A stretch of 48,920 nt of DNA from Pseudomonadota bacterium. Its GTDB lineage: Bacteria > Pseudomonadota > Alphaproteobacteria > Acetobacterales > Acetobacteraceae. The stretch covers positions 1 through 48,920 of the forward strand of contig JAKBBM010000010.1 in NCBI GenBank assembly GCA_021808545.1, in the 5' to 3' direction. This document shows, in pieces, positions 11,962 to 45,922 of this stretch. Each line of letters begins with the position of its first letter. Within the stretch, counting starts at the first letter, position 1. Both the position numbers and the translations under genes were made by a program. Below the pieces are notes generated by a model, which saw only the letters and a program-made list of their open reading frames with translations, made no database searches and was not told the origin of the DNA.

Positions 11962-12333
11962 TTAGCGGGCGGGGCAGAGTTGTTTGACGACGGAGAGAAG
12001 CTGGTTGGGCTCGGCCGGCTTGGTCAGCCAGCCAGAGGCGCCGGCGGCGCGGGCCTCGTCGCGCTTGCGCCCGCCGGATTCGGTCGTCAGCACGATGATC
12101 GGGGTAAAGCGGGTGGAGGCGATCTTGCGCGCTTCCTTGATGAAGCCGATGCCATCGAGCTCGGGCATGTTGAGGTCGGTGAGAATGACCGAGGGTTTGA
12201 CCCCGTCATTCAGCTTGGTGATGCCCTCGCGGCCGTTCATGCCGGTCTCGACGTCATAGCCAGCGCCTTTGAGAATATGCGACAGGCTCATGACCATTGT
12301 GGCCGAGTCGTCGAGGACAAGTATCGTAGGCAT
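11962..12333 (-). CDS. cheY: CheY-type single-domain response regulator
   Basis: This 123-residue protein is a lone receiver domain. It has the acidic pair Asp8-Asp9, the phosphoacceptor Asp53 in LTDLNMPELDG, Thr83 in IVLTTES and Lys105 in TKP, so all key residues for phosphotransfer and switching are present. CheY-P normally binds FliM and FliN to change rotation. It lies between cheR and the possible CheZ-like gene on the minus strand. A CtrA-like box sits 60 bases upstream. Single-receiver proteins with other roles exist, so the symbol rests partly on context. No histidine kinase, CheW or receptor gene is in the window. Confidence 0.88.
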   Translation of the reverse strand: MPTILVLDDSATMVMSLSHILKGAGYDVETGMNGREGITKLNDGVKPSVILTDLNMPELDGIGFIKEARKIASTRFTPIIVLTTESGGRKRDEARAAGASGWLTKPAEPNQLLSVVKQLCPAR

Positions 12334-12527
12334 CTATACGGGCTCCATTCGGCTGATTTTTGCGCGGGATTGCCCTATCGTGCCGGGCAAGTGTTGAAAC
12401 ACGGTTAAGAAGGGAAAAGGCTTGATCGATCTGAACGAACCGGGACGGCGGCGCGCGCCCGGCCGGGGCCGTTCAAAAGATCGTGAGGCGGCGCGCGCGC
12501 GCCTGTGCGGGGGGCATGACGGAGCCG
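12334..12527. other. Intergenic region between cheR and cheY
   Basis: This gap holds no supported gene. On the minus strand it should contain the 5' leader and probably a promoter for cheY, including the CtrA-like box at 12393-12408. A short inverted repeat, ATGACGG-AG-CCGTCAT (12516-12531), overlaps the cheR stop codon but has no T tract, so it is at best a weak terminator. The stretch 12485-12503 is a GC dinucleotide run. Confidence 0.5.
12393..12408 (-). promoter_or_regulatory. CtrA-like box upstream of cheY
   Basis: On the minus strand the sequence reads TTAA-CCGTGTT-TCAAC, matching the alphaproteobacterial CtrA consensus TTAA-N7-TTAAC with one mismatch. It lies 60 bases before the cheY start codon, a plausible activator position. 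CtrA controls motility genes in many alphaproteobacteria, but no ctrA gene is in the window, so binding is inferred. Confidence 0.4.
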
Positions 12528-13400
12528 TCATGGGACGTCTCCGGGTTTCTGATAGGCGATCACGGCGCCAAAATGGCGGGTCAGGAACAGGTCGGCCATG
12601 TGGCGCATCGATTCTGAATGTCCCAGGAAAATGAAGCCGCCCGGACGCAGGCACTCACGCAGAATCCGCACGCTGTGGCGGCGCGCGGCCTCGTCGAAAT
12701 AAATCAGCAGATTGCGGCAGAACAGCACGTCGATCTCGCGGTAGCGCTGCATGTCCTGCGTGCGGGTGATGTTGGCGTGGGCAAATTGCACGCAAGCGCG
12801 CACGGCCGGGCTGATCTGGTGGCGCCCGTCGGGCTGGCGGGTGAAGTAACGGGCACGCAGGGGGCCGGGCAGGTGGCGCAGCGTTTCGTCGTCATAAAGG
12901 CCGGCCTTGGCCGCGCGCAGGGCGTCGGTATCGATGTCGGCGCCGTGCAGCTCGATATGGTGCCGGACCGGGTCCAGCCCGTGCGCCAGCAGGTGCAGGG
13001 CGATGGAATACGGCTCCTCGCCGGTGGCGCAGGGCATGCAGAGAAGGCGCCTCACGCCGCCCGGGCCGCGCAGCGCGGCAAGCTCGGGCAGCACGCTCTG
13101 TGTCAGCGCCTCGAATTGCCGTGTTTCGCGGTAGAAAAAGGTTTCGTTGATCGTGAGCAGGTTGATCAGCTGTTCCAGCTCGGCCGTGCCCGCGGGCGTT
13201 TTCAGATGGGCCAAATACGCCTCGACCCCGTCTTGCCCGGACGCGATAAGGCGCGCGCGCAGGCGTGATTCCACATAATACCGTTTGGCGGGGGTGAAGG
13301 CGATGCCCGTCTGGTGCCGGAAAAAAGTGTAGAAGCGCCTGAGCGCCTGCTCCGACATCTCCATCCCGGGCGCGGCTGGCGGGGAAAGGGCGTGGGTCAT
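12528..13400 (-). CDS. cheR: CheR, chemotaxis receptor methyltransferase
   Basis: This is a 290-residue protein. The N-terminal helical domain (about 15-85) includes RFYTFFRHQTGIAF and INETFFYRE, as in CheR. The SAM-binding domain has CATGEEPYSIA (family CSTGEEPYS), the acidic HGADIDTDAL strand and LFCRNLLIYFDEAARR. CheR methylates glutamates of chemoreceptors using S-adenosylmethionine for adaptation. It leads the cheR-cheY unit, opposite in direction to fliE. The partner methylesterase CheB is not in the window. The ATG at 13400 gives a normal CheR length. Confidence 0.94.
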   Translation of the reverse strand: MTHALSPPAAPGMEMSEQALRRFYTFFRHQTGIAFTPAKRYYVESRLRARLIASGQDGVEAYLAHLKTPAGTAELEQLINLLTINETFFYRETRQFEALTQSVLPELAALRGPGGVRRLLCMPCATGEEPYSIALHLLAHGLDPVRHHIELHGADIDTDALRAAKAGLYDDETLRHLPGPLRARYFTRQPDGRHQISPAVRACVQFAHANITRTQDMQRYREIDVLFCRNLLIYFDEAARRHSVRILRECLRPGGFIFLGHSESMRHMADLFLTRHFGAVIAYQKPGDVP

Positions 13401-14121: not shown

Positions 14122-15630
14122 ATGCCTGACTGGCGGCAAAATCTGGAGCGGCTGCGGGCGCAGGCGGGCAAACTGCCGAAGATCCTGTGGGCCGCGGGCG
14201 GTGTGATTCTGCTGTCGCTCGGCGCGGTGCTGTGGCTGGAAACGTCCGGCCCGCCTTATGCCGTGCTGGAGGAAGGGCTCTCCCCCGCCGATGGCGGCAA
14301 GGTAATCGCGCAGCTGCAAAAGCTTGGCATTCCCTATCAACTCGCGGCGGCGGGCAACATCATCATGGTACCGCAGCCGCAGCTGGCGCAGGCGCGGCTG
14401 CAGCTGGGCCAGGCTGGCGTGCCTGGCTCTTCCGTGCAGACCGCCTGGTCGCGTCTTGAGGACGCGCCGATGACCGCCTCGGATCTCGCGCAATCGACGA
14501 TGGCGGTGCAGGCGCTGCAATTATCGCTGCAGCAATCGATCGAGGGGCTGAACGGCGTGCGCAGCGCGCAAGTGTTCCTGGCGCTGCCGCCCGACACGCC
14601 CTTCCTGGGCGATCAGCCCAAGCCGGCGGCCTCTGTCGTTATCCAGGCGGACGCGGCGTCGGCGCAGGCGCAAGGCCAGGCGATCGCCAATCTCGTCGCC
14701 GGCGCGGTGCCGGGCCTGTCGGCCAATAATGTCACGGTCGAGACGACCGATGGCACAACTGTGTTCCCCCTGAATGGGGCGATGAGCACCGGCCGGCAGT
14801 TCGCCACCGTCTCGCAAATTGAGGCGCAGGCCGCCGCGCATATCGCGGGCCTGCTGATTCCGCTGGTCGGGGCAGGAAATTTCCAGACAAACGTGTCGGC
14901 GAACCTGGATTTCACGCAAGAGCATATCCACCAGATATCTTACGGGCCGACACACCTTGTCGCGCATGAACAGAGCGATCACAGCGTCCAGTATGGCAGC
15001 GGCGATGCCGCGATCGGGATTCCCGGCGCGCTCTCGAACGAACCGCCCTCGCAAACCACGGCCAGCACCAGCGCCAATGCCACCGGCGGCAAGAGCACGG
15101 CCAAGAGCAGCAAGGCGCAAGAACCCTCGCGCAGCAGCACCAGCCTGGATCAGACCTATGTCACCGACCAGAGCGAGCAGGATATCACCAAGCCGGATTG
15201 GGCGGTGAAATCGTTGGCTGTTTCCGTGGTGCTGAACAAGGCGGCGCTGGCCAAGGGCGTGTCTCTGGACCAGGTGAAGGCGGCTATCGCCGGGGGTTTT
15301 GCCTATCCAGATGTAACCGTGCATGTGCTGGCGGCCTCGTTCCGCAAGGCGCCCTCGCCCTTGCTGGCGCCCCCGCTGGTGCGCGCGGCCGGGCCGCTCA
15401 CCCATGCGCTGCTGGAGGTGATGGCGGCCGCCGCCCTGTTGTTTGGGTTGGCCTTGCCGGTTGGCCGCCGGCTGGCGGCGGTGAATATCCAGTCCCTCCT
15501 GCCGCCGCCGCCCCGGCCCATGCCGGTGGCGCTGCCGCCGCGGGACTTTTCGGAATTGCGTGAGCAGGCGGCGGAGAACATCCCCGGCGTGGCGCGCCTG
15601 TTGCAGAGCTGGGCTGAAGATAATGAGTGA
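14122..15630 (+). CDS. fliF: FliF, flagellar MS-ring protein
   Basis: This is a 502-residue protein, a little shorter than the usual 550-570. The first membrane span is about residues 20-40 and the second about 428-450. Between them lie the periplasmic ring-building domains with MVPQPQLAQARLQLGQAGVP and GLNGVRSAQVFLALP, then a linker rich in Ser, Thr and Lys. The short cytoplasmic tail DFSELREQAAENIPGVARLL is the FliG-binding helix. FliF forms the MS ring on which rotor and export gate assemble. Its end overlaps the fliG start by 8 bases. The first ATG after fliE is used. Confidence 0.95.
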   Translation: MPDWRQNLERLRAQAGKLPKILWAAGGVILLSLGAVLWLETSGPPYAVLEEGLSPADGGKVIAQLQKLGIPYQLAAAGNIIMVPQPQLAQARLQLGQAGVPGSSVQTAWSRLEDAPMTASDLAQSTMAVQALQLSLQQSIEGLNGVRSAQVFLALPPDTPFLGDQPKPAASVVIQADAASAQAQGQAIANLVAGAVPGLSANNVTVETTDGTTVFPLNGAMSTGRQFATVSQIEAQAAAHIAGLLIPLVGAGNFQTNVSANLDFTQEHIHQISYGPTHLVAHEQSDHSVQYGSGDAAIGIPGALSNEPPSQTTASTSANATGGKSTAKSSKAQEPSRSSTSLDQTYVTDQSEQDITKPDWAVKSLAVSVVLNKAALAKGVSLDQVKAAIAGGFAYPDVTVHVLAASFRKAPSPLLAPPLVRAAGPLTHALLEVMAAAALLFGLALPVGRRLAAVNIQSLLPPPPRPMPVALPPRDFSELREQAAENIPGVARLLQSWAEDNE

Positions 15631-16663
15631 CGAGCCGCAAAAGCAATTACCCGCGCCGGCGACGGGCGTCACCGCGCTGAGCGGGCCCGAGCGCGCCGCC
15701 ATGGTGCTGCGCGAACTGGGCGAGGAAACCGCCGCCGCCGTGTTGCGCGAGATGGATGAAGCCACGGTGAACCGGATCTCCACCGCCATGACCACGCTGA
15801 AGGCCGTGGGCACGCAGGTGCGCGAGGATGTGATGGTGAATTTCGCCAATGATCTCGGCCTGACCGGGTTTGGCGGAGATGGGCTGAAATTCCTCAACCG
15901 TGTGCTGGTCTCGGCCCTGGGCGAGACGCAGGCCAAGGAGATATTGGAGCGGCTCAGCCGTGCTGAACGGCGCTCGGCCTTTCACCTGCCGCCGAATACC
16001 GATCCGCGCACGCTGGCGATGCATATGGCGCATGAGCGGCCGCAGACCATCGCGCTGCTCTTGGCGCATATTCCGCACGAGATGGGGGCCAATCTGCTCA
16101 CCTTTCTGCCCGAGCCGCTGGCGGCGGAGGCGTTGTACCGGTTTTCCACGCTCGATGTGGTCTCCCCCAGCGCGGTGACGGAGCTGCGCGATATGCTCGA
16201 AGAACTGGCCAGTGCCACTGGCAGCACCGGGCGGCGCGTGACCAATCTGGGCGGGGCCAAGCAGACGGCGGATATTCTCAACCATTTCCCCACCGCCATG
16301 TCGGATGCGGTGCTCTCGGCCATCGACACGCGTGATGCCACGACGGCCGAGAAAATCCGCGAAAACCTATTCACCTTCATCGATCTGGGCAAACTCACCG
16401 ACCGCTCCTTGCAGATTTTGCTGCGCGAGGTGCCGCAGGACAAAATGGCGCCGGCCTTGCGTCTGGTGGACGAGACGCTGCGCGGCCGCTTCTTCCAGAA
16501 TCTCTCGGCGCGGCAGGTGGAAATCCTGAAAGAAGAATTGCGCTCCGGCCCGCCGATCCGCCGCGCCGATGCGCTGACCGCCCAGAGCGAGATTGTCGAG
16601 GTCGCGCTGCGCCTGGCGGGCGAGGGGCGGATCACGATCAGCGCGACAGAGGAGATGGTGTGA
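15623..16663 (+). CDS. fliG: FliG, rotor switch protein
   Basis: This is a 346-residue protein from the ATG at 15623, inside the end of fliF; the frame is open further upstream but this start fits FliG. N-terminal FliF-binding helices include GPERAAMVLRELGEETAAAV. The middle domain carries HERPQTIALLLAHI, equivalent to the EHPQ motif that contacts FliM. The C-terminal domain has IRENLFTFIDLGKLTDRSLQ, the torque helix with charged residues facing the stator. FliG converts stator activity into rotation. Its stop overlaps the fliK start as TGATG. Confidence 0.96.
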   Translation: MSDEPQKQLPAPATGVTALSGPERAAMVLRELGEETAAAVLREMDEATVNRISTAMTTLKAVGTQVREDVMVNFANDLGLTGFGGDGLKFLNRVLVSALGETQAKEILERLSRAERRSAFHLPPNTDPRTLAMHMAHERPQTIALLLAHIPHEMGANLLTFLPEPLAAEALYRFSTLDVVSPSAVTELRDMLEELASATGSTGRRVTNLGGAKQTADILNHFPTAMSDAVLSAIDTRDATTAEKIRENLFTFIDLGKLTDRSLQILLREVPQDKMAPALRLVDETLRGRFFQNLSARQVEILKEELRSGPPIRRADALTAQSEIVEVALRLAGEGRITISATEEMV

Positions 16664-18195
16664 TGGCGCTTCCCGCAATCGTTCCGGCTGCCCAGTCCCA
16701 ACCGGCCCAGCCAGCCGCCCGTGCCGCGGCGGACACGCAATCCTGGTCTGGCGCGCTGGCCGCGGCCGGAGGAGAAAGCCCAGCGCCACAAGCCGCATCC
16801 ATAGCACCGGGGGCAGCGCCGCCGCAGAGCCGGGATACGTCCCAGAACACAACCACAGGGCCCAAAAAAACGGGCGCGCAGCAGGCCTCATCCGCCAGAG
16901 CCACGCCCGCCCAAGGCGCGGCGGTGCCAACCAAACCGGGCCAAGCCGAGCTGGCGGCGAAACTGGCGGATGGCAAACCTGGCACCGACAAAATGGTGGC
17001 CAAAAAATCTGAACAGAAAAAAAAGACGGACACGCCCCCCGCTGCCGTGGCGATGAATCTATCGCCCGTCATGAACAACCCCGTGCCGGACAAGGCCGCC
17101 ACGCCTACTTCAGGATCATCATCAACGGGCCAGCCCGGGCCGCATGATGTGAGCGGGACACAAGCGGCCAATGCGCAGGCGCTGGCGCCATCGTCAGTGC
17201 CATCGTCAGTGCCATCGCCAACTTCACCGCCAACTTCACCGCCAACTTCACCGCCAACTTCACCGCCAACGTCATCGGGTACAGCGCTGGCCGCCGCGCC
17301 GGCGGATCAAGCTGCCGGGCATACGGGTAGCGCAACGGGGGCCTTGTCGCATCATGCGTCAGCCTCTGTTCCCGCGGCTGGCACATCTGTGCCCATCGCC
17401 ACCACGGCGGCAGTGCCTGTGGTGCATGGGCCGGTCGTCGCCTCATCTGCCCAGGCCCTGCCCCAGGCCGGGCAGGGTATTGGCGCGCATGCCAAACCGG
17501 CTGCCGCCCCCACGGCCGCCCAGCAGGAGAGTGCCGTTCATGCGGTTGCGGCCGTCAACCAAACATCCAGCACGGCGGCCAGTCTGGCGTTGCGTGGCAG
17601 CTTTGCCGCGGCCGCGCCGTCGGCCGGTGCGTTTAAAACAGCAGCGGATAAGTCGAGCGCTGAGCCAGGCAGCGCCGCGCTAGGGGTAAGTGCGCTGGCG
17701 GGGGGCGGCAACAATTCTGCCCCGGCCGCCGCGCCGGTGCAAACCGCCATGCCGCAAATCGCCGCCGCCACACCAACGGGCGCCACGGGCAGCAGCGCCG
17801 CGGCGCTGGCGGCCACCGTCACCGCCCTGCACCAGGCGGGGCAGTCGGGTGCCGTGCTGCGGCTGGACCCGCCGGGGCTGGGCACGCTCTCGGTCCATGT
17901 TGGGCTGAGCGGGCTAGGGCAGGTGAATGTGCTGTTTGTGCCCTCCACGGCGCAGGGTGCGCAGGCGCTGCAGGCCGGGCTGCCGGGGCTGAGTACGGCC
18001 ATGGCGCAATCGGGCCTCGTGCTCGGCCAGGCGCAGGTGGGCGGGCAGTTTGGCCAGAATGCCGGGCAGGGTGGCGGGCAGAGCCCGAACGGCCAGGGCC
18101 GTGCCGCCTTTGCCGCGCCGGATGCGCCGGTTGCGGCCACCACCGCCACGGCCGCCACGGCCGCCAGCACGAACGGATTAAGCGCCTATGCCTGA
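16663..18195 (+). CDS. fliK: FliK, hook-length control protein
   Basis: This is a 510-residue protein from the ATG at 16663 (a GTG one codon earlier is also possible). The first about 370 residues are a low-complexity ruler rich in Ala, Pro, Ser and Thr, with a TSPP tandem repeat. The C-terminal part (about 380-460) is the FliK switch domain: AVLRLDPPGLGTLSVHVGLS and LGQVNVLFVPSTAQGAQALQ. FliK measures hook length while being exported and switches export from hook to filament proteins through FlhB. It sits between fliG and fliM, overlapping both. The N-terminus is recognisable by composition only, the C-terminus by motif. Confidence 0.88.
   Translation: MALPAIVPAAQSQPAQPAARAAADTQSWSGALAAAGGESPAPQAASIAPGAAPPQSRDTSQNTTTGPKKTGAQQASSARATPAQGAAVPTKPGQAELAAKLADGKPGTDKMVAKKSEQKKKTDTPPAAVAMNLSPVMNNPVPDKAATPTSGSSSTGQPGPHDVSGTQAANAQALAPSSVPSSVPSPTSPPTSPPTSPPTSPPTSSGTALAAAPADQAAGHTGSATGALSHHASASVPAAGTSVPIATTAAVPVVHGPVVASSAQALPQAGQGIGAHAKPAAAPTAAQQESAVHAVAAVNQTSSTAASLALRGSFAAAAPSAGAFKTAADKSSAEPGSAALGVSALAGGGNNSAPAAAPVQTAMPQIAAATPTGATGSSAAALAATVTALHQAGQSGAVLRLDPPGLGTLSVHVGLSGLGQVNVLFVPSTAQGAQALQAGLPGLSTAMAQSGLVLGQAQVGGQFGQNAGQGGGQSPNGQGRAAFAAPDAPVAATTATAATAASTNGLSAYA
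17191..17265 (+). repeat. 12-base tandem repeats inside fliK
   Basis: Two exact 12-base copies of TCGTCAGTGCCA (17191-17214) are followed by four exact copies of CCAACTTCACCG (17218-17265) and one degenerate copy. They encode SSVP and then PTSP units in the FliK ruler region. The period is a multiple of three, so slippage would change ruler length without breaking the frame. Confidence 0.9.
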
Positions 18196-19447
18196 GACGT
18201 TCGAGGATGTGGAAACGCTCGACCTGCTGGACCCGATGCGGGCCCCCCAGCTGCGCTCGCTGCTCATGGAGAATCTGTCCGACAGGTTCATGCGCCAGAT
18301 CGCCTTTACCCTGTTTCAGCGCATGCGCCATTCGGTGCAGCTGCTCTCCTGCATCAATAACGTGATCAGCCATGAATCCGCGATGTCGGCCCTGCCGGAA
18401 GTGATGCTGGCGGGTATTTCGGAACTCACGCCATTGCGCGGGCGCATGCTGCTCGCCATTGATGGCGATCTGATCGGCGCCATGGTCGATGCGCTGTGCG
18501 GCGCCACCACGGCCCAGCCGTTCGAGCGTTACGAATTGTCGGCGCTGGAAACGCGGATCGGCAAGCAGATGATCGATCTGTCGCTGGAGACGATCGCGGA
18601 GACGCTGAGCCCGCTTGTGCAGCTCAACCTCACCCCCATCGCGTATGAGAACGCGACCGGCATGCTCGCCATCGCCGACGGGCAGGATTGGATGATCGCC
18701 GTTACCGGGATTTTCGAGACCGAGCTTGGCTCGGGCACGATCAAGCTGATCGCGCCTTATGCCGGGTTCGAACCCTTGGAGCTGAAAGTCGCAACCCAGA
18801 CCGGCCTGCTGGGCGGGCGCGGGACCGATACGGGCTGGATCAACGCGATTGAGATGCTGGCCGAGGAAACCCCCGTGGATGTGCGCTTTGAGCTGGCGCG
18901 CGCGGTGGTGCCGCTGGCGGTGTTCGAGGCGGTGGCGCCGGGCAGCATCCTCCCGCTCACGCTGTGGCCGGAGGCGGTCGCCGTCTCGGGCGGGGTGGAA
19001 TTGTTCCGGGCCGATTACGGCCAGACGGATGGCACGGTGTGCTGCCGGGTGAAGGTGCAGACGGACGAAGGAGATAAGAGCATGGCGGATCAGAAGGAGC
19101 ATGTCGGCGCGGCCGACGGCGCCGAGCCCGAGCGCGTGGAGCTGGAGCCTATTCAGGCGCAGACACGCGGCGCGCCCGCGATTACGGCGCGCAATGTGCT
19201 GGACCGAGTGCAGGTGGTGCTGACCGTGGAATTGGGCCGCGCCCAGATTACGGTGAAGGATCTGCGCCAGCTCCGGCATGGGCAGATCGTATCCTTGAAT
19301 CAGGCGGTGGGCGAACCGCTGGCGATTTTCGCCAACGGGCAGAAGCTGGCTTTTGGCGAGGTGGTGGCGGTTGCGAATGACCGTTACGGCATCCGCGTGA
19401 CCGCCCTGGCCGAGGATACCGAGCAGGACAGCGGAGACGCGCTGTGA
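18188..19447 (+). CDS. fliM-fliN: FliM-FliN fusion, flagellar C-ring switch protein
   Basis: One uninterrupted 419-codon frame encodes both C-ring proteins. Residues about 15-225 match the FliM middle domain (ENLSDRFMRQIAFTLFQRMR, LTPLRGRMLLAIDGDLIGAM). Residues about 226-295 form a first SpoA domain (FliM C-terminus). After a 40-residue linker, residues about 337-408 form a second SpoA domain (DRVQVVLTVELGRAQITVKD, GEPLAIFANGQKLAFGEVVA), which is FliN. The usual N-terminal EIDALL peptide that binds CheY-P and its linker are not recognisable; only about 20 residues precede the core. The C-ring switches rotation direction. Overlaps of 8 bases with fliK and 4 with fliQ suggest coupling. An internal start could also give free FliN. 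Confidence 0.88.
   Translation: MPETFEDVETLDLLDPMRAPQLRSLLMENLSDRFMRQIAFTLFQRMRHSVQLLSCINNVISHESAMSALPEVMLAGISELTPLRGRMLLAIDGDLIGAMVDALCGATTAQPFERYELSALETRIGKQMIDLSLETIAETLSPLVQLNLTPIAYENATGMLAIADGQDWMIAVTGIFETELGSGTIKLIAPYAGFEPLELKVATQTGLLGGRGTDTGWINAIEMLAEETPVDVRFELARAVVPLAVFEAVAPGSILPLTLWPEAVAVSGGVELFRADYGQTDGTVCCRVKVQTDEGDKSMADQKEHVGAADGAEPERVELEPIQAQTRGAPAITARNVLDRVQVVLTVELGRAQITVKDLRQLRHGQIVSLNQAVGEPLAIFANGQKLAFGEVVAVANDRYGIRVTALAEDTEQDSGDAL
19068..19084 (+). promoter_or_regulatory. Internal ribosome binding site and ATG for free FliN
   Basis: AAGGAG at 19068-19073 is followed, after 8 bases, by an ATG at 19082 in the same frame as the FliM-FliN fusion. This is an ideal Shine-Dalgarno spacing and sits exactly at the FliM-FliN boundary. 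It implies that FliN may also be translated alone from the same message. Confidence 0.6.
19082..19447 (+). CDS. fliN: FliN, probable internal translation product of the fusion
   Basis: Starting at the internal ATG, the product would be 121 residues, the usual size of FliN. It has an acidic, disordered N-terminus (MADQKEHVGAADGAEPERVE) and one SpoA domain with the hydrophobic FliN core LRHGQIVSLNQAVGEPLAIF. In other bacteria FliN is a separate gene after fliM and outnumbers FliM about three to one in the C-ring. A fused copy plus free FliN would restore such a ratio. The SpoA domain is clear; that the short form is actually made is inferred from the ribosome binding site. The stop overlaps the next fliQ start as ATG within GTGAGTG context (4-base overlap). 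Confidence 0.6.
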   Translation: MADQKEHVGAADGAEPERVELEPIQAQTRGAPAITARNVLDRVQVVLTVELGRAQITVKDLRQLRHGQIVSLNQAVGEPLAIFANGQKLAFGEVVAVANDRYGIRVTALAEDTEQDSGDAL

Positions 19448-19707
19448 GTGATACGGGGGTCAGTGTCGGTGCCTGGGTTGCTTTTGCCGAGCTGGCTGGG
19501 CCGGTGCTGCTGGTCATGCTGGTGATCGGGCTTGGCGTCGGCGTGCTGCAAACCGCAACCCAGGTGCGCGAAGCCTCGATTCCCTTTGTGTTCAAGCTGG
19601 TTGGCATGGCCGCGCTCACCACGTTGGCCGGGCGGCTGATGATGGGCGGGGTCGAGCAATACGCCACCAATCTGTTCCATGCCATTCCGGGGCTGCTGCA
19701 TGGCTGA
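19444..19707 (+). CDS. fliQ: FliQ (second copy), flagellar export gate subunit
   Basis: This is an 87-residue, two-span protein with AGPVLLVMLVIGLGVGVLQT, then TATQVREASIPFVFKLVGMA, which aligns well with the FliQ core (LQAATQINE-type). It begins with GTG at 19444, overlapping the fliM-fliN end by 4 bases, and overlaps flhA by 8 bases. A first FliQ lies at 174-449 between fliP and fliR; the two share the fold and a few key residues but are clearly divergent. This copy keeps TQ of the motif but has FK in place of PK. Whether both enter one gate, or each serves a different stage, cannot be told from sequence. Confidence 0.85.
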   Translation: MSDTGVSVGAWVAFAELAGPVLLVMLVIGLGVGVLQTATQVREASIPFVFKLVGMAALTTLAGRLMMGGVEQYATNLFHAIPGLLHG

Positions 19708-21799
19708 AACCGCCACTTTGCCGCGTGTGAGCGCGTTGAGCGCGACTCAGCTTTCAGGGCCTATTGTTGTCCTGCTGGTGCTGGTGATGTTGGTGGTGCC
19801 GTTGCCGCCGGCCGCCATCTCGTTCCTGTTCGCGCTCAACATCTCTGCTGGCCTCGTGATTCTGGGGGCGAGCCTTTACATTCCCTCGCCGGCGGAATTT
19901 TCCTCCTTCCCCTCGGTGCTGCTGGCCACCACGCTTATGCGTTTGGCGCTTAACGTGGCCACGGCGCGCGCCATTTTGCTGCATGGTTATACCGGGCCGG
20001 GTGCTGCCGGGCATGTTATCGAATCCTTTGGCCAGTTCGCGGTGGGCGGCAATTATGTCGTCGGCGGCATCATCTTTATCATTCTCATCATCATCAATTT
20101 TGTTGTCGTCACCAAGGGCGCTTCGCGCGTGGCCGAGGTTTCGGCCCGCTTCATGCTCGATTCACTGCCTGGGCGGCAGATGGCGATCGATGCCGAGATC
20201 AATGCCGGCATTCTCTCGCCGCAGGCGGCCGAGCGCCGGCGCGAGATGCTGCGCCGCGAAGCGGATTTCTTCGGCGCCATGGATGGTGCCAGTAAATTCG
20301 TGCGTGGCGACGTGGTCGCGGCGATGATCATCCTTGTCGTCAACATGGTGGGCGGGCTGATCATCGGCGCGCTGCAATATGGGCTGCCGCTGGCCGATGC
20401 CGCGCGCACCTACACGCTGCTGACGGTGGGCGATGGGCTGGCCGCGCAAATCCCCTCGCTCACCATCTCGGTGGCGGCGGGTCTTGTGGTCACGCGTGTC
20501 GCCACGGGCGAGGATATCGGCCAGCAAATCAAATCCCAGCTCGAAAAATATCCGCAGGCGTTGGCCATTGCCGCGGCGATGACCGGGGCCATCGGGCTGG
20601 TGCCGCAAATGGCGCATATTCCGTTCCTCATGCTGGCGGCGGCCCTGGGTACCGCGGCTTGGCGCCTGTCGCGCGCGGCTAACCGCAAGGCCGATGCGGC
20701 GCTGAACGCACCCGAGGCCGGCGAAGCCACGCCCGCCAGTGAAATCAAGACCGACTCTTTGGTCGATGTCACCGGTGTCGATCCGCTGGGCATGAATATT
20801 GGTTTTGCGCTGGCGCCGCTTGTCGGCCCGGGCGAGGGGCGGCTTTTGGGCCGTCTCACCGCTGTGCGCCAGCGTTATGGCCGCGCCATGGGGTTTTTGG
20901 TGCCCGCCGTGCATATCCGCGATTCCTCCGATCTCGCCGCGCATGCGTACCGCTTCACCTTGCGCGGGGCCGCGATTGGCGGCGGCGAGGCTTGGCCCGG
21001 CCAGTGGCTGGCCATTGAAGGCCCGATGGTGACGGAAAAACTCTCCATTGGCCGCCCGGTAAAGGACCCGGCCTTTGGCCATGAGGCGGTGTGGATTCCG
21101 CAAGGCGCGATCCCGGCGGCCGAAGAGCTGGGTTACACGGTGGTGGATGCGCCCTCTGCCATGGCCACGCATTTCGCCGAAATCCTCAAACGCCACGGGG
21201 CCGAGCTGCTGGGCCGCCCGCAGGTGGAGGGGCTGATCACGCGTCTGGCCGAAACCACGCCGCGCCTGGCCGAGGATTTGCGGACCAATCTGCCCGTGGG
21301 GCTGGTGCGCCAAGTGTTGCAGGGGCTGCTGGCCGAGGAAGTGCCGATCCGTGATTTTGAGCGCATTGCCGAGGCGCTGGTGGAAGCCGCCGATGCCGGG
21401 GTAAAGGATGTGGAGAAGCTGCTGGCGGCGGTGCGGCTGCGGCTGGGGCGCTTTATTGTTAGCCAGATTGCGGGCGCGGATCCGGCCTTGCGCGTGGCGG
21501 TGCTGCCACCCCGGCTGGAGGAGCTGATCACCAAATCCTTGCGCGCGGGGCGCGAGAGCGGGATTGGCGCCGAGATTGAGGCCGAGATCGCCCAGCATGT
21601 GCGCGAATCCGCCGCCGCCGTCGTGCGGGCCATGCGCGCGCGCGGCGCCAAGCCGGTGCTGGTGGTGCAGGGGCTGCTGCGCCGCGCGGTGGCGCGCGCG
21701 GTGGCGGGCATGTTGCCGGTGCTGGCGCTGGAGGAGATCCCCGACACTCTGCCGCTGCAAGTGGTGCATACGGCTGAAGCGGGCGCGGCCCATGGCTGA
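19700..21799 (+). CDS. flhA: FlhA, flagellar export gate ring protein
   Basis: This is a 699-residue protein from the ATG at 19700, inside the end of fliQ; the frame is open 21 bases further upstream. Residues about 20-330 hold the eight membrane spans, with PSVLLATTLMRLALNVATAR and the conserved cytoplasmic loop GASRVAEVSARFMLDSLPGR followed by QMAIDAEINAG. The C-terminal about 340 residues form the cytoplasmic nonamer ring that docks chaperone-substrate complexes. FlhA couples export to the proton motive force. The stop overlaps fliA by 8 bases. The partner FlhB is not in this window. Confidence 0.96.
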   Translation: MAETATLPRVSALSATQLSGPIVVLLVLVMLVVPLPPAAISFLFALNISAGLVILGASLYIPSPAEFSSFPSVLLATTLMRLALNVATARAILLHGYTGPGAAGHVIESFGQFAVGGNYVVGGIIFIILIIINFVVVTKGASRVAEVSARFMLDSLPGRQMAIDAEINAGILSPQAAERRREMLRREADFFGAMDGASKFVRGDVVAAMIILVVNMVGGLIIGALQYGLPLADAARTYTLLTVGDGLAAQIPSLTISVAAGLVVTRVATGEDIGQQIKSQLEKYPQALAIAAAMTGAIGLVPQMAHIPFLMLAAALGTAAWRLSRAANRKADAALNAPEAGEATPASEIKTDSLVDVTGVDPLGMNIGFALAPLVGPGEGRLLGRLTAVRQRYGRAMGFLVPAVHIRDSSDLAAHAYRFTLRGAAIGGGEAWPGQWLAIEGPMVTEKLSIGRPVKDPAFGHEAVWIPQGAIPAAEELGYTVVDAPSAMATHFAEILKRHGAELLGRPQVEGLITRLAETTPRLAEDLRTNLPVGLVRQVLQGLLAEEVPIRDFERIAEALVEAADAGVKDVEKLLAAVRLRLGRFIVSQIAGADPALRVAVLPPRLEELITKSLRAGRESGIGAEIEAEIAQHVRESAAAVVRAMRARGAKPVLVVQGLLRRAVARAVAGMLPVLALEEIPDTLPLQVVHTAEAGAAHG

Positions 21800-23980: not shown

Positions 23981-24262
23981 ATGGGCAAAGGCAAATCCAC
24001 GAAAAAACAGAAACTCATGAGCCCCTTCATGCTGGTGCTGGCGGCGATGACGGCCTGGGCGGCAACGCATGAACCGGCGCATTTGAATATGGGCAGCACC
24101 GGCGTGTGGCTGCTGGAGGCACTGGCCGTGGCATTGCTGGTGCGCGCGGGGCTGGCGTTGCTGGCCCCCTTGCTGGGTATGGCGGGCGCGTTGGCGGGGC
24201 GCTTATGGCAGGATGCGCGCGGCACGCACGCCCATGGCGGCCATCATGGGGGCGAGGCATGA
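23981..24262 (+). CDS. Small membrane protein of unknown function between motB and fliH
   Basis: This is a 93-residue protein that I do not recognise. It starts with a basic, Lys-rich stretch (MGKGKSTKKQK). A hydrophobic segment (about 14-29) and a longer one (about 41-75) follow, suggesting two or three membrane spans, and then a His/Gly-rich tail (THAHGGHHGGEA). A strong Shine-Dalgarno (GAGGAGGAC) lies just before the ATG, and the stop overlaps fliH by 4 bases. The real fliH starts at 24259, so this is a separate gene, not an extension. Its place suggests a stator or export accessory role, but there is no direct evidence. Confidence 0.7.
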   Translation: MGKGKSTKKQKLMSPFMLVLAAMTAWAATHEPAHLNMGSTGVWLLEALAVALLVRAGLALLAPLLGMAGALAGRLWQDARGTHAHGGHHGGEA

Positions 24263-27977: not shown

Positions 27978-30900
27978 GTGTCCAACGCCATTTTCATTGT
28001 CGGCTATTATCGCAGCGGCACCTCGGCCTTGTCCGGGGCACTCTCACGCTTAGGCGTGAAATTCTATAACGAGGCCGACCCGAACGAGCATAACCCGCTC
28101 GGCTTTTACGAAATTCCGGAGCTGATCGAATATGATGTCGATCTGTTCAACCGCCTTGGCGTGGATTGGACCGATGTGCGCGGCCTGCCCGCGGGCTGGG
28201 CTGAGCGCGCCGATTTGGCGGGCATGCTCTCGCGGCTGGAGGAGATCTTGCGCCGGCGCTTTCCGCCCACAGAGGCGCTCTGGGGGCTGAAACATCCGCA
28301 TTTGTGCCGGACCTTGCCCTTGTATGAACGCGCTGCCCGCCAGGCCGGGCACGATCTGCGCATCGCCCATATTTTCCGCGATCCCTGGACCGCCGCCTTC
28401 AGCCAGCAGCACAAAAACGGGCTGGCCCGCGCGCACGCGCTACTGCTGTGGATGAGCTATGTCACCTCGGCTGAGCGTCTGGCCCGGCATTTGCCGCGCT
28501 GCTGGCTCACCTATCAGGATTTGCTGGCCAGCCCCGAGGTGGAGTTACGCCGGCTGGGAGGGGAGCTTGGTCTTGATTTTGGCGCGGCGGGGGCGGATGG
28601 CTGGCAGGCGGCCTCGTCTTATCTCACCGGCCAGCTCAACCGCAGCGAGACGCTCACGCGCGAAGGGCTGGCCAAGCCGCTGCGCGCGCTGGTCGAAGAA
28701 ACGTGGGAGGCGATTCTCAACCGCCGGTTCACGCCGGATCTGTGGGATGAATTCGCCGCCGGTACGGCCGATCTGGTCGGCTTCCTGACCGAAATTGGGG
28801 CGAGCCGCGGGCGGGTGATCCCGGCTCTGGCGGGCTCGCTGGCGCCTGGCATTGTGCGGATTGCCGCACCGGCCGAAGCGCTGCGCCCGCCCGAGCGCGA
28901 GGATGAGGGCGCGCGCATCCGGCTGGCGGCGCTGGAGGATGCGGCGGGCCTGCTGCCGCGCGTGAGCGTGATCATCGCCGCCCCATCCCGGCGCGCCCAT
29001 GCGGTGAACGACACGCTGGCGAGCTTGCGCGCGCAATGGCGGGCGCCGGACCAGATCATGGTGCTCAGCGCCGATCCGCTGACCCTGCCCGACACGCCAT
29101 GTGAAAGGGTGGCGGCGACACCAGGCGCGATGACGCAGGCGCTGTGCGCCGCGGTGAACCACGCGGCAGAAACGGCCGATTATGTCGCCGTGTTGAATGC
29201 GGGCGACACGCTGACCCCGGATGCCTGCCTGCGTTTTGCCCTCTGTGCCGCGCAAAGCGGGGTGGAGATGATCTATTGCGACGAGATGGTCCCGCGCGAG
29301 GGCGGTGCTTGGGTACGGCGCAAGCCGGGTTGGGATGTCACGCGGCTGCGCCAGGCGGCCTATATTGGTGATTGGGTCTGGTACGGCGCCAAGGCCCTGC
29401 GCGCGGCCGGCGGGTTGGACCCGGCCCGCGCGGGGGCCGAGGAATATGATCTGCAATTGCGCCTGGCCGAGCAGGAAGCAATGGTGACACGCCTGCCCGA
29501 GGCGCTGTTCACCCGCGCGCCCGAGAGCCGGCGCGACGATATCCTTCCCGACGAATTCTGCACCCGCGCGGCCGAGGCGCTGCAAGCGCATCTGGCGCGC
29601 GCTGGCCTGCTGGCTCAGGTGCAGGCGCGCCAATATGCGGGGCTGTTCCATCATTCGCGCGAACTGGCCGATCCCGGCACCAGCATCATCATGTTGTGCG
29701 ATGGCGGCGATATTCCGCGGCTCGACCAATGGTTGACCACGCTGCTCACCGGCCCGGCGCTGAGCGGGCCCATCATCCTTGCCGGCGCTGCGCTGGAGCC
29801 GGGGCTGGTCAATTACCTCACCACGGTCACGCAGCAGGGAGTGGCGCTGGAAGGTAAGGTGCTGGCGGTGCCGCCCGCACCGGATTTGCGCCCGGGATCA
29901 GCGCTGAAAGCGGCTCTGGCGCTGGTGCCAACCGCGCTGGTGGCGGTGTTGGATGTGCGGGCCATGCCGGTTACGCCGCTATGGGCCGAGGGGCTGCGCG
30001 CCCGTCTGGCCGACCCCAAGGTGGCGATGGCCGGGGCGCGCCTGCTGGTGCCGCTCGGCAACGAGGCCGAGCAGGCGCAGGTGCAAGGGCCGATTGTGCT
30101 GGGCGCCGATACGCGGCTGGGGGCGGGGCATTTGCCGGATGATCCGGGCCCTGGCGGCTGGCTGCTGGTGGACCAGGAGGCCAGTGCTCTTAGCCCGCCC
30201 GGCCTGCTGGCGCGCACAGAGGCGTTGCGCGCATGCGCCATACCGGACGATTTGGCGGGCGATGCGCTCTGGATTACGCTGGGCGCACAGCTGCGCCAGC
30301 GCGGCGGGCGGCTGGTCTGGACACCGGATGTCTCCTTTTTGGCCCCGGCCGAGCTGGTGCGGGTGGATGCGGCGCATGAGGCGCGCCGCCATGACGCGGC
30401 ATTGCCCTGGGCGGATCCGTACCACCATCCGGCCTTGTCGCTGCATGGCGATTTGCTGGCACCCGAGCCGCGCAACGGGCTGATCCGCTCTTATCCCGCC
30501 GATCCGCGCAGCCTGCTGCTGAGCGGCGGACCCGAGCCGGGGGCTTGCGTGCTGAACGCGGCGCGCGCCTTGCGGCGTCTGGGCTCTTTGGAGGCGGATT
30601 GGGCGCCCGAGCGGCCCGATGCGGCTGATTTGGGCCGGCGCGCGGCCAATGGCTGGGTGCGCGTGAATCCAGCACGCCCGGCGCAGCCTTTCAGCCCGCC
30701 TTACCGGGCCGTGTTCACCGCCCCGCCAGAGCCCGAGGCCCTGCCCGTGCTGGCCGAGGCGGCGGAACTTTACGCGACCTCGCCCGCCCTGGCGGCGATG
30801 CTGCGCCCGCTTGTCCCAGCAGGCCGGCAGGTGCGGCTATGGCGCCCGGCTTTATATCGCCCGCTTTGGGCCGATCTTAAAATCGGCATCGGGCTGAACA

Positions 30901-31415
30901 CCAAGCCGCGTATTCTGTGGGTGGATGAGGGCATGACCCCGCCTTGGATCGCGGAGCTGATGAACAGCGTGCTGGAGAGCGCGTCCTGGATTGTGGTTGA
31001 GCGGGCCGGGTCGAGCTATTCCGGCTCCGTCTCGCGCATTCAGCCGCCGGATTCCGAATATGGTTGGGCCCAGGCCATGGCCGAGCTGGGGCCGCAAATT
31101 CTCATCCGCCCGGCCGGGGATGCCGCCCATGCCGACCATTACCCCGCCTTGCTGGCGGCGGCGGCGGGCTGCCATGTGCTGGTGGATGAGCGGCTGGATC
31201 TGCCTTCGGGTTTTGCCGCCGCGCGTTTGCCAGCCACCCCCGAAGCCTGGGTGAGGGCGCTGCAACAAGCGATTGCCGACTTGCCGGAGACGCTGCGCCG
31301 CGGCCAGGCGATGCGCGCCGCCGCCCTGGCCTTGCCCTCGATCGAGGAAAACCTGCCGCCCTGGGCTAATTTAGAGCCGGATGGGGCTTTTGCCCTGTCC
31401 CGTGCCGCGGAATAG
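27978..31415 (+). CDS. Giant sulfotransferase-glycosyltransferase multidomain protein, candidate flagellin modifier
   Basis: This is a 1145-residue soluble protein with no signal peptide or membrane span. Residues 1-270 look like a sulfotransferase: FIVGYYRSGTSAL at 6-18 fits the 5'-phosphosulfate loop, and HIFRDPWTAAFSQQHKNG near 130-147 fits the second phosphate-binding motif with Arg and Ser. Residues about 325-540 begin VSVIIAAPSRRA and contain VAVLNAGDTLTPDA, as in GT2 glycosyltransferases. Residues about 565-800 hold a second GT2-like region (GARLLVPLGNEAEQAQVQGP). The C-terminal about 300 residues resemble a GT4-type half. It lies between flgL and flgA-fliC, so modification of flagellin is the most economical role, but substrates are unknown and some domains may be inactive. 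Confidence 0.75.
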   Translation: MSNAIFIVGYYRSGTSALSGALSRLGVKFYNEADPNEHNPLGFYEIPELIEYDVDLFNRLGVDWTDVRGLPAGWAERADLAGMLSRLEEILRRRFPPTEALWGLKHPHLCRTLPLYERAARQAGHDLRIAHIFRDPWTAAFSQQHKNGLARAHALLLWMSYVTSAERLARHLPRCWLTYQDLLASPEVELRRLGGELGLDFGAAGADGWQAASSYLTGQLNRSETLTREGLAKPLRALVEETWEAILNRRFTPDLWDEFAAGTADLVGFLTEIGASRGRVIPALAGSLAPGIVRIAAPAEALRPPEREDEGARIRLAALEDAAGLLPRVSVIIAAPSRRAHAVNDTLASLRAQWRAPDQIMVLSADPLTLPDTPCERVAATPGAMTQALCAAVNHAAETADYVAVLNAGDTLTPDACLRFALCAAQSGVEMIYCDEMVPREGGAWVRRKPGWDVTRLRQAAYIGDWVWYGAKALRAAGGLDPARAGAEEYDLQLRLAEQEAMVTRLPEALFTRAPESRRDDILPDEFCTRAAEALQAHLARAGLLAQVQARQYAGLFHHSRELADPGTSIIMLCDGGDIPRLDQWLTTLLTGPALSGPIILAGAALEPGLVNYLTTVTQQGVALEGKVLAVPPAPDLRPGSALKAALALVPTALVAVLDVRAMPVTPLWAEGLRARLADPKVAMAGARLLVPLGNEAEQAQVQGPIVLGADTRLGAGHLPDDPGPGGWLLVDQEASALSPPGLLARTEALRACAIPDDLAGDALWITLGAQLRQRGGRLVWTPDVSFLAPAELVRVDAAHEARRHDAALPWADPYHHPALSLHGDLLAPEPRNGLIRSYPADPRSLLLSGGPEPGACVLNAARALRRLGSLEADWAPERPDAADLGRRAANGWVRVNPARPAQPFSPPYRAVFTAPPEPEALPVLAEAAELYATSPALAAMLRPLVPAGRQVRLWRPALYRPLWADLKIGIGLNTKPRILWVDEGMTPPWIAELMNSVLESASWIVVERAGSSYSGSVSRIQPPDSEYGWAQAMAELGPQILIRPAGDAAHADHYPALLAAAAGCHVLVDERLDLPSGFAAARLPATPEAWVRALQQAIADLPETLRRGQAMRAAALALPSIEENLPPWANLEPDGAFALSRAAE

Positions 31416-44917: not shown

Positions 44918-45922
44918 ATGTCAGAGTTTCTCGATTCGCTGCTGCCGGATGCCGCCGCCCCGGCCGACCAAGTGCTGCGCACCGCAAGGCTGCTGTTGCG
45001 CCCGCCGCGGGCGTCCGATGTGGCGCCGTTCCATCGGCTGATCAATGAGTGGGAGATCTGCCGCCATTTGCCCGATGCGCCGTTTCCCTACCCGGCCGAT
45101 CTGGCGGCGGAGTGGATTGCCGCCGCCGCCGCCGACCGCGCTGCCCGCCGGGCCGAGCAGTTCGCCCTGATCGAGGCGCAAAGCGGCAATTTGCTGGGCA
45201 TTGCCGGGCTGCGCTTGGCCAAGGGGCAGAAGAGCGCTGAGCTTGGCTATTGGCTGGGGCGGGCGCATTGGCGCCAGGGTTATGCGCTGGAGGCGACGCG
45301 CCGGCTGGTGGAATGGGGGTTTGCCGCGCTGCCGATCGCGCAGATGACCGCGACCGTGGCGGCGGACAACGAGGCTTCGCTCGCGGTGCTGCGCCAGCTG
45401 GGCTTTGCGCCGGCGGGCAAGGGGGCAAGGGTGTTTTTATGCCGGCCGGGGCAAAAGCTGCCGGTACGGCATTTTGTGCGCGAGCGCGATTTGTCGGCAG
45501 CCCCCCCGGAGGCCAGCCTGCCGCCGCGCACGCTGCTGGTGGTGGCCGCCGCCCTGATCGACGCGCAAGGCCGCGTGCTGCTGGCGCGCCGCCCCGAGGG
45601 CAAGAAAATGGCTGGGCTGTGGGAGTTTCCCGGCGGCAAGCTGGAGCCAGGTGAAACGCCCGAGGCCGCACTGGCGCGTGAACTGCGTGAGGAGCTGGGG
45701 CTGGAGGCGGCGGCGGAAGATTTTGCGCCTTTTGTTTTCGCCTCGCACCCGTATGAGAGTTTCCATCTGTTGATGCCAGTGTTTTTATGCCGGCGTTGGA
45801 AGGGCACGCCGCGCCCGCGCGAAGGGCAGAAGCTGGCCTGGGTGGCGCCGGAGCGGTTGGCCGAATATCCAATGCCGCCGGCCGACCGGCCTTTGATTCC
45901 CATGCTGCGAGATTTTTTATGA
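44918..45922 (+). CDS. GNAT acetyltransferase-Nudix (MutT-like) fusion protein
   Basis: This is a 334-residue two-domain protein. Residues about 20-170 are a RimJ/RimL-type GNAT domain (TARLLLRPPRASDVAPFHRL; ELGYWLGRAHWRQGYALEAT for acetyl-CoA binding; NEASLAVLRQLGF). Residues about 205-330 are a MutT-like Nudix domain with a complete Nudix box, GKLEPGETPEAALARELREE then LG. MutT enzymes clean oxidised dGTP; GNAT proteins acetylate amines or protein N-termini. Whether the two act together is unknown. The short upstream region is shared with proA, and the stop overlaps the next gene by 4 bases. Confidence 0.88.
   Translation: MSEFLDSLLPDAAAPADQVLRTARLLLRPPRASDVAPFHRLINEWEICRHLPDAPFPYPADLAAEWIAAAAADRAARRAEQFALIEAQSGNLLGIAGLRLAKGQKSAELGYWLGRAHWRQGYALEATRRLVEWGFAALPIAQMTATVAADNEASLAVLRQLGFAPAGKGARVFLCRPGQKLPVRHFVRERDLSAAPPEASLPPRTLLVVAAALIDAQGRVLLARRPEGKKMAGLWEFPGGKLEPGETPEAALARELREELGLEAAAEDFAPFVFASHPYESFHLLMPVFLCRRWKGTPRPREGQKLAWVAPERLAEYPMPPADRPLIPMLRDFL

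Follow-up and report, generated by a model that had tools for sequence, protein, structure and literature searches.

Can the flagellar C-ring draw both FliM and FliN from a single gene? Canonical flagellar fliM and fliN are separate genes. The question is raised by one locus in a stretch of 48,920 nucleotides (contig JAKBBM010000010.1 of GenBank assembly GCA_021808545.1, from the alphaproteobacterial family Acetobacteraceae; hereafter the window), whose genome was taken as one of the genus Acidocella. In this locus fliM and fliN are joined in one open reading frame (ORF), and a candidate start for fliN stands inside it. Based on the sequence comparisons below, we consider it likely that this one gene yields two products, a long FliM-FliN and a free FliN, as SctQ of the injectisome does. 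In the literature searched we found no description of a naturally occurring flagellar FliM-FliN fusion that has an internal start; most subscription literature was beyond the reach of that search.

The fusion ORF lies on the plus strand at 18188..19447, and its parts given here lie on the same strand. It encodes a long product of 419 amino acids (aa) with the order FliM-SpoA1-SpoA2. The FliM middle domain (PF02154; residues 21-198, E 4.4e-18) was located at 18248..18781, the first SpoA domain, which is the C-terminal domain of FliM (PF01052; E 1.7e-7 in the genome scan), at 18863..19054, and the second SpoA domain, which corresponds to FliN (PF01052; E 8.3e-20 in the genome scan), at 19199..19408. 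Both FliM domains, middle and C-terminal, are thus present in the fusion. An internal in-frame ORF from the ATG at 19082 (19082..19447, 121 aa) is the predicted free FliN, or short product, and this short frame by itself matched PF01052 with E 7e-20. The FliN model TIGR02480 gave 76-77.3 bits, slightly under its cut-off of 84.05. The FliM model TIGR01397 gave 129.9 bits, under its cut-off of 219.6, so the FliM part is regarded as a divergent FliM. By sequence, the best PDB match was the engineered FliM::FliN fusion 4yxb, aligned over residues 241-412 with both SpoA domains covered. The preliminary description of this DNA had read one frame of 419 codons with a FliM middle domain, a FliM SpoA and a FliN SpoA, and had placed AAGGAG, eight bases and an in-frame ATG at the domain border; both readings hold, the second to the base. 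It had also named a separate fliN elsewhere as grounds against its interpretation. In the window's genome (93% complete) no PF01052 match at E 0.001 was found outside the fusion ORF, and there was a single FliM match.

The N-terminus of FliM carries the CheY-binding segment, LSQxEIDALL. At the corresponding end of the fusion (18188-18260) an EIDALL-type segment was not recognisable, the TIGR01397 alignment begins at model position 48, and an 'xEALDLL' stretch occurs near the N-terminus. A cheY-like gene and cheR lie in the window near the fusion cluster (11962-13400).

Is the ATG between the two SpoA domains used as a start? In the window, the Shine-Dalgarno sequence AAGGAG (19068..19073, plus strand) is followed by a spacer of 8 bases (19074-19081) and by the ATG (19082-19084), which is codon 299 of the long frame. 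The comparison comprised 29 fusions situated in the same operon slot, before fliQ-flhA. All 29 have an in-frame internal ATG, and 28 of these share one alignment column (the internal starts of L009, L010, L027 and L069 were assigned by hand from the alignment). Pairing with the anti-Shine-Dalgarno of -5 kcal/mol or stronger was found at this place in every one of the 29, compared with 47 of the 337 in-frame ATGs elsewhere in these ORFs; at -7 kcal/mol or stronger the counts were 25 of 29 and 1 of 337. Of 28 rows compared, 25 also had stronger pairing at the internal site than at the start of fliM, with the nearest start codon used as the fliM start and L073 left out.

A conserved Met and a conserved GGA might also serve the protein itself, as a linker of the form E-G-D-x-x-M. 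The Gly at 295 is indeed conserved in 26 of 29 fusions, and Met 299 stands in the common column in 28 of 29. The choice of codons speaks against this: the six codons preceding the start contain 29 Gly codons in total, 28 of them GGA, whereas in the remainder of these ORFs GGA makes up 72 of 931 Gly codons (Fisher 1.9e-28, kinship ignored). Moreover, the residues encoded at the Shine-Dalgarno, EGD or EGE in most fusions, are EEE in L071, EKEK in L069 and EGPS in L025, and in these three the Shine-Dalgarno persists in another register despite the changed amino acids. We therefore regard the linker explanation as very improbable. The putative internal start of fliN is a conserved feature of the nucleotide sequence.

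The distribution of the fusion was investigated in 38 genomes of the genus, 33 of which had a SpoA match. A fusion in the operon slot was present in 27 of the 38 (the window's and 26 further), with 29 copies, each of G004 and A. facilis (G061) having two operons. In each of these two genomes, both flagellar operons are of this type and carry their own fliM-fliN fusion (L069-L072). Downstream, fliQ-flhA follow in all 29 copies; a fliK match lies just upstream in 23. The operon-slot fusions are conserved down to about 45% protein identity, and the window's protein shares 73-82% identity with its matches in named Acidocella (A. aromatica DSM 27026, A. facilis ATCC 35904, A. aquatica NBRC 112502 and A. 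aminolytica DSM 11237). In G026 the fusion is divided between two contigs, one of which contains the whole junction; its N-terminal half at a contig end (L032) was dropped and the other half (L073) counted. L102, L103, L078, L099 and L104 were dropped as copies of counted loci. Four more genomes of the genus (G006, G010, G018 and G032) have a fusion outside the operon, and G020 and G029 lack a fusion, their fliM and fliN being separate genes of a different flagellar type (L074, L075, L079). No SpoA match was obtained in the remaining five (G005, G008, G016, G028 and G030).

These genomes bear on two trivial explanations. First, the fusion could be a frameshift of sequencing or assembly: an out-of-frame TAA (19075-19077) stands just before the internal ATG, and an error of one base could hide a stop. 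The preliminary description had proposed that the same fusion be sought in relatives. It was found open across the junction in 26 further genomes of the genus, including assemblies under the names A. aromatica, A. aquatica, A. aminolytica and A. facilis, and an error in this genome was rejected, its probability being close to nil. Second, free FliN might come from another SpoA gene that was unassembled or very divergent. In favour of this, the completeness of the window's genome is 93%, and an extreme relative could escape PF01052. However, no further match was found, within the sensitivity of PF01052, in any of the 27 genomes with an operon fusion, ten of which are rated 99-100% complete, so this source of FliN is most improbable.

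In an order sample of 385 genomes, the 23 matches at E 1e-30 comprised 21 fusions, 19 from the same genus and two from genus g86 (G331 and G1135), and two unfused loci from a third genus (G316 and G1137). Among the best matches listed for a class sample of 385 genomes there was no other single-frame fusion, and among those listed for a phylum sample of 398 genomes, with four candidates scored per genome, only the window's own covered both parts in one open frame. Four frames of these two samples that looked long (G491, G406, G523 and G867) each had a single SpoA match.

A natural counter-test is provided by the genomes in which the fusion left the operon. Six moved fusions were examined: those of G006, G010 and G018 in the genus, of G331 and G1135 in g86, and of G032. 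In the first five genomes the slot between fliK and fliQ-flhA contains only a free fliN of 115-129 codons, while the FliM-FliN fusion lies elsewhere, beside a cheY-like gene and with further che-like genes nearby. The assembly of G032 has no flhA match, and it was left out of the operon-slot count. A separate fliN therefore occupies the slot wherever the fusion left an assembled operon (5 of 5 genomes), which fits the SctQ-like reading of a long and a short product. In five of the six moved fusions no linker ATG pairs better than -3.3 kcal/mol. In the SpoA2 tree the moved copies also lie on long branches, as would be expected if their fused FliN no longer had to double as free FliN. Where both sites could be assessed, the capacity for fusion plus free FliN is kept, either in a single gene that has two starts or in a pair of genes.

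Several observations weigh against the two-product reading. The moved fusion L105 (G331) retains a candidate ATG with a pairing of -6.1. In L029, L030 and L119 the linker or the early part of SpoA2 contains GTG codons with pairings of -5.0 to -5.8, and these moved fusions may on that account have a weak GTG start. In the moved fusions as a group, the FliM parts fall into a single clade (98/94), so the counter-test represents few independent events. Finally, when the sites were recoded synonymously with the amino acids fixed, only 1 of 29 loci attained its own 5th percentile. The test is weak per locus, since many codon choices for E-G-D already yield a fair Shine-Dalgarno; for the set as a whole, the observed mean of -8.46 was under all 1000 recoded means (lowest -8.39). 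More telling than synonymous recoding are the use of GGA for Gly and the shifted register.

Was the state with two genes derived from that with one? In trees of FliM and of SpoA2, from which a few near-identical rows were also removed, the moved fusions and the free FliNs were placed among the operon fusions. A constraint keeping the operon fusions together was not rejected by the approximately unbiased (AU) test (p-AU 0.062, 0.232 and 0.114). The same constraint gave p-AU 0.248 and 0.611 in flhA trees, the constrained tree being slightly better in the latter, and free FliN as one clade gave 0.389. The outgroups were on long branches. In part, then, the trees favour a two-gene state nested among the operon fusions, with all AU tests above 0.05.

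Where, then, did the internal start come from? In the unfused relatives L107, L120, L114 and L115, which occupy the same slot before fliQ-flhA, fliM and fliN overlap in different frames: the fliN ATG lies inside the 3' end of fliM, and the fliM stop ends 11-20 bases past the start of that ATG. FliM is also short (294-296 aa) in L107, L114 and L115. This overlap suggests how the internal start arose, as a frame change near the border would join the two genes and retain the start of fliN. The same position gives rise to the most serious competing explanation, namely that only the long fusion is made, that the internal start is left over from the fliN gene of an ancestor and that the C-ring runs on the fused protein at 1:1. 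Besides the location of the start where unfused relatives begin fliN, this is favoured by the report (PMC4443714) that flagellin is secreted and some swarming occurs with an engineered fusion. A relic would nevertheless hardly be conserved in 29 of 29 fusions down to about 45% protein identity, with its Shine-Dalgarno rebuilt from other codons, and the separate fliN in the slot of all five assessable genomes whose fusion left the operon also disagrees with it. We thus think it unlikely, although it has a better chance than the other alternatives.

If the gene has two products, their cooperation can be proposed as follows. Initiation at 18188 would give the 419-aa FliM-FliN, in which SpoA1 and SpoA2 would pair within the chain, as judged from solved homologues (cf. 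4yxb). Initiation at 19082 on the strong Shine-Dalgarno would give the 121-aa free FliN. The fused FliN would occupy one FliN place per FliM, free FliN would fill the remaining ring, and both products would presumably be required. By analogy with Spa33 we infer one long to two short chains, giving FliM:FliN 1:3. According to PMC4832279, the long and short forms of Spa33 are both required, and their 1:2 complex corresponds to FliM:FliN 1:3. The proposed ratio is helped by a further statement in that paper: in Salmonella, a mutant with an engineered FliM-FliN fusion can be complemented with extra FliN but not with FliM; an engineered Salmonella fusion is also described there as forming few and fragmented C-rings (Kihara 1996, as cited in PMC4832279). 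For Xanthomonas hrcQ, PMC8553256 states that the internal start is needed in cis and that the short form in trans partly restores secretion. It is in view of the counter-test, together with these published results on Spa33, engineered fusions and hrcQ, that the two-product reading is the best one.

On a broader scale, it is probable, in our opinion, that the flagellar motor independently evolved the solution of SctQ: fliM and fliN fused in frame, with an obligatory pair of long and short products. In two genera the same pair is divided over two genes, with loss of the strong internal start from the long gene. If this is true, Acidocella would have a flagellar system in which translation initiating at two sites of a single mRNA determines the stoichiometry of the C-ring. 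The locus also bears on a possible origin of injectisome SctQ, in which overlapping fliM and fliN would become a one-frame gene by a frame change, with the old start kept. Since one C-ring gene occurs here naturally fused, naturally separated and, in relatives, unfused, the need for free FliN beside FliM and the FliM:FliN ratio become testable in working flagella.

The surroundings of the fusion are flagellar. The gene order in the window is fliE-fliF-fliG-fliK-[fliMN]-fliQ-flhA-sigma factor-motA-motB-fliH-fliI, and flagellin and FlgK are also among the neighbours. On the plus strand, fliF (14122..15630) is followed by fliG (15560..16663; ORF as listed, with an uncertain first codon) and by fliK (16660..18195), which overlaps the start of the fusion by 8 bases (ATGCCTGA). 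Downstream, also on the plus strand, fliQ (19444..19707) shares 4 bases (GTGA) with the fusion at its stop, and flhA (19679..21799) is given as its ORF was listed, its start codon not being settled. Short 12-base tandem repeats occur in fliK (17187-17274; PTSP-type in the protein), with about 5 copies in the longer array. An ORF of 93 aa between motB and fliH (23981-24262) had no Pfam match at E 0.001, and a 1145-aa ORF within the flagellar cluster (27978-31415) had a weak sulfotransferase match below the Pfam cut-off. Farther along, GNAT acetyltransferase and NUDIX domains are joined in one ORF (44918-45922).

How does this gene compare with known systems? The fusion has the architecture of SctQ, a FliM-like part and two SpoA domains in a single chain, and like Spa33, SpaO, YscQ and HrcQ it has an in-frame internal start for the last SpoA. 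Unlike them, it lies in a flagellar operon, not among injectisome genes, and contains PF02154. The SctQ model TIGR02551 gave 61.8 bits, under its cut-off of 100.8, and the FliM score of 129.9, likewise under its cut-off, is about twice as high. On account of these neighbours and scores, the fusion is a flagellar FliM-FliN and is not classed as SctQ, although it would work like SctQ. The preliminary description had called it a flagellar parallel to SctQ, and the flagellar neighbours, the internal start conserved in 29 of 29 fusions and the separate fliN where the fusion moved all support that view. With canonical flagellar fliM and fliN it shares the same three domains; these are separate genes, also in G029 and G020, while here there is one frame and no separate fliN was found in the genome. 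The overlapping unfused fliM and fliN of G316, G1137, G1029 and G1002 lie in the same slot before fliQ-flhA and likewise have the fliN start at the end of fliM, but their fliN is in another frame. In the engineered Salmonella FliM::FliN (PDB 4yxb/4yxc) the SpoA of FliM is also joined to FliN; that fusion is man-made, and the one described here is natural.

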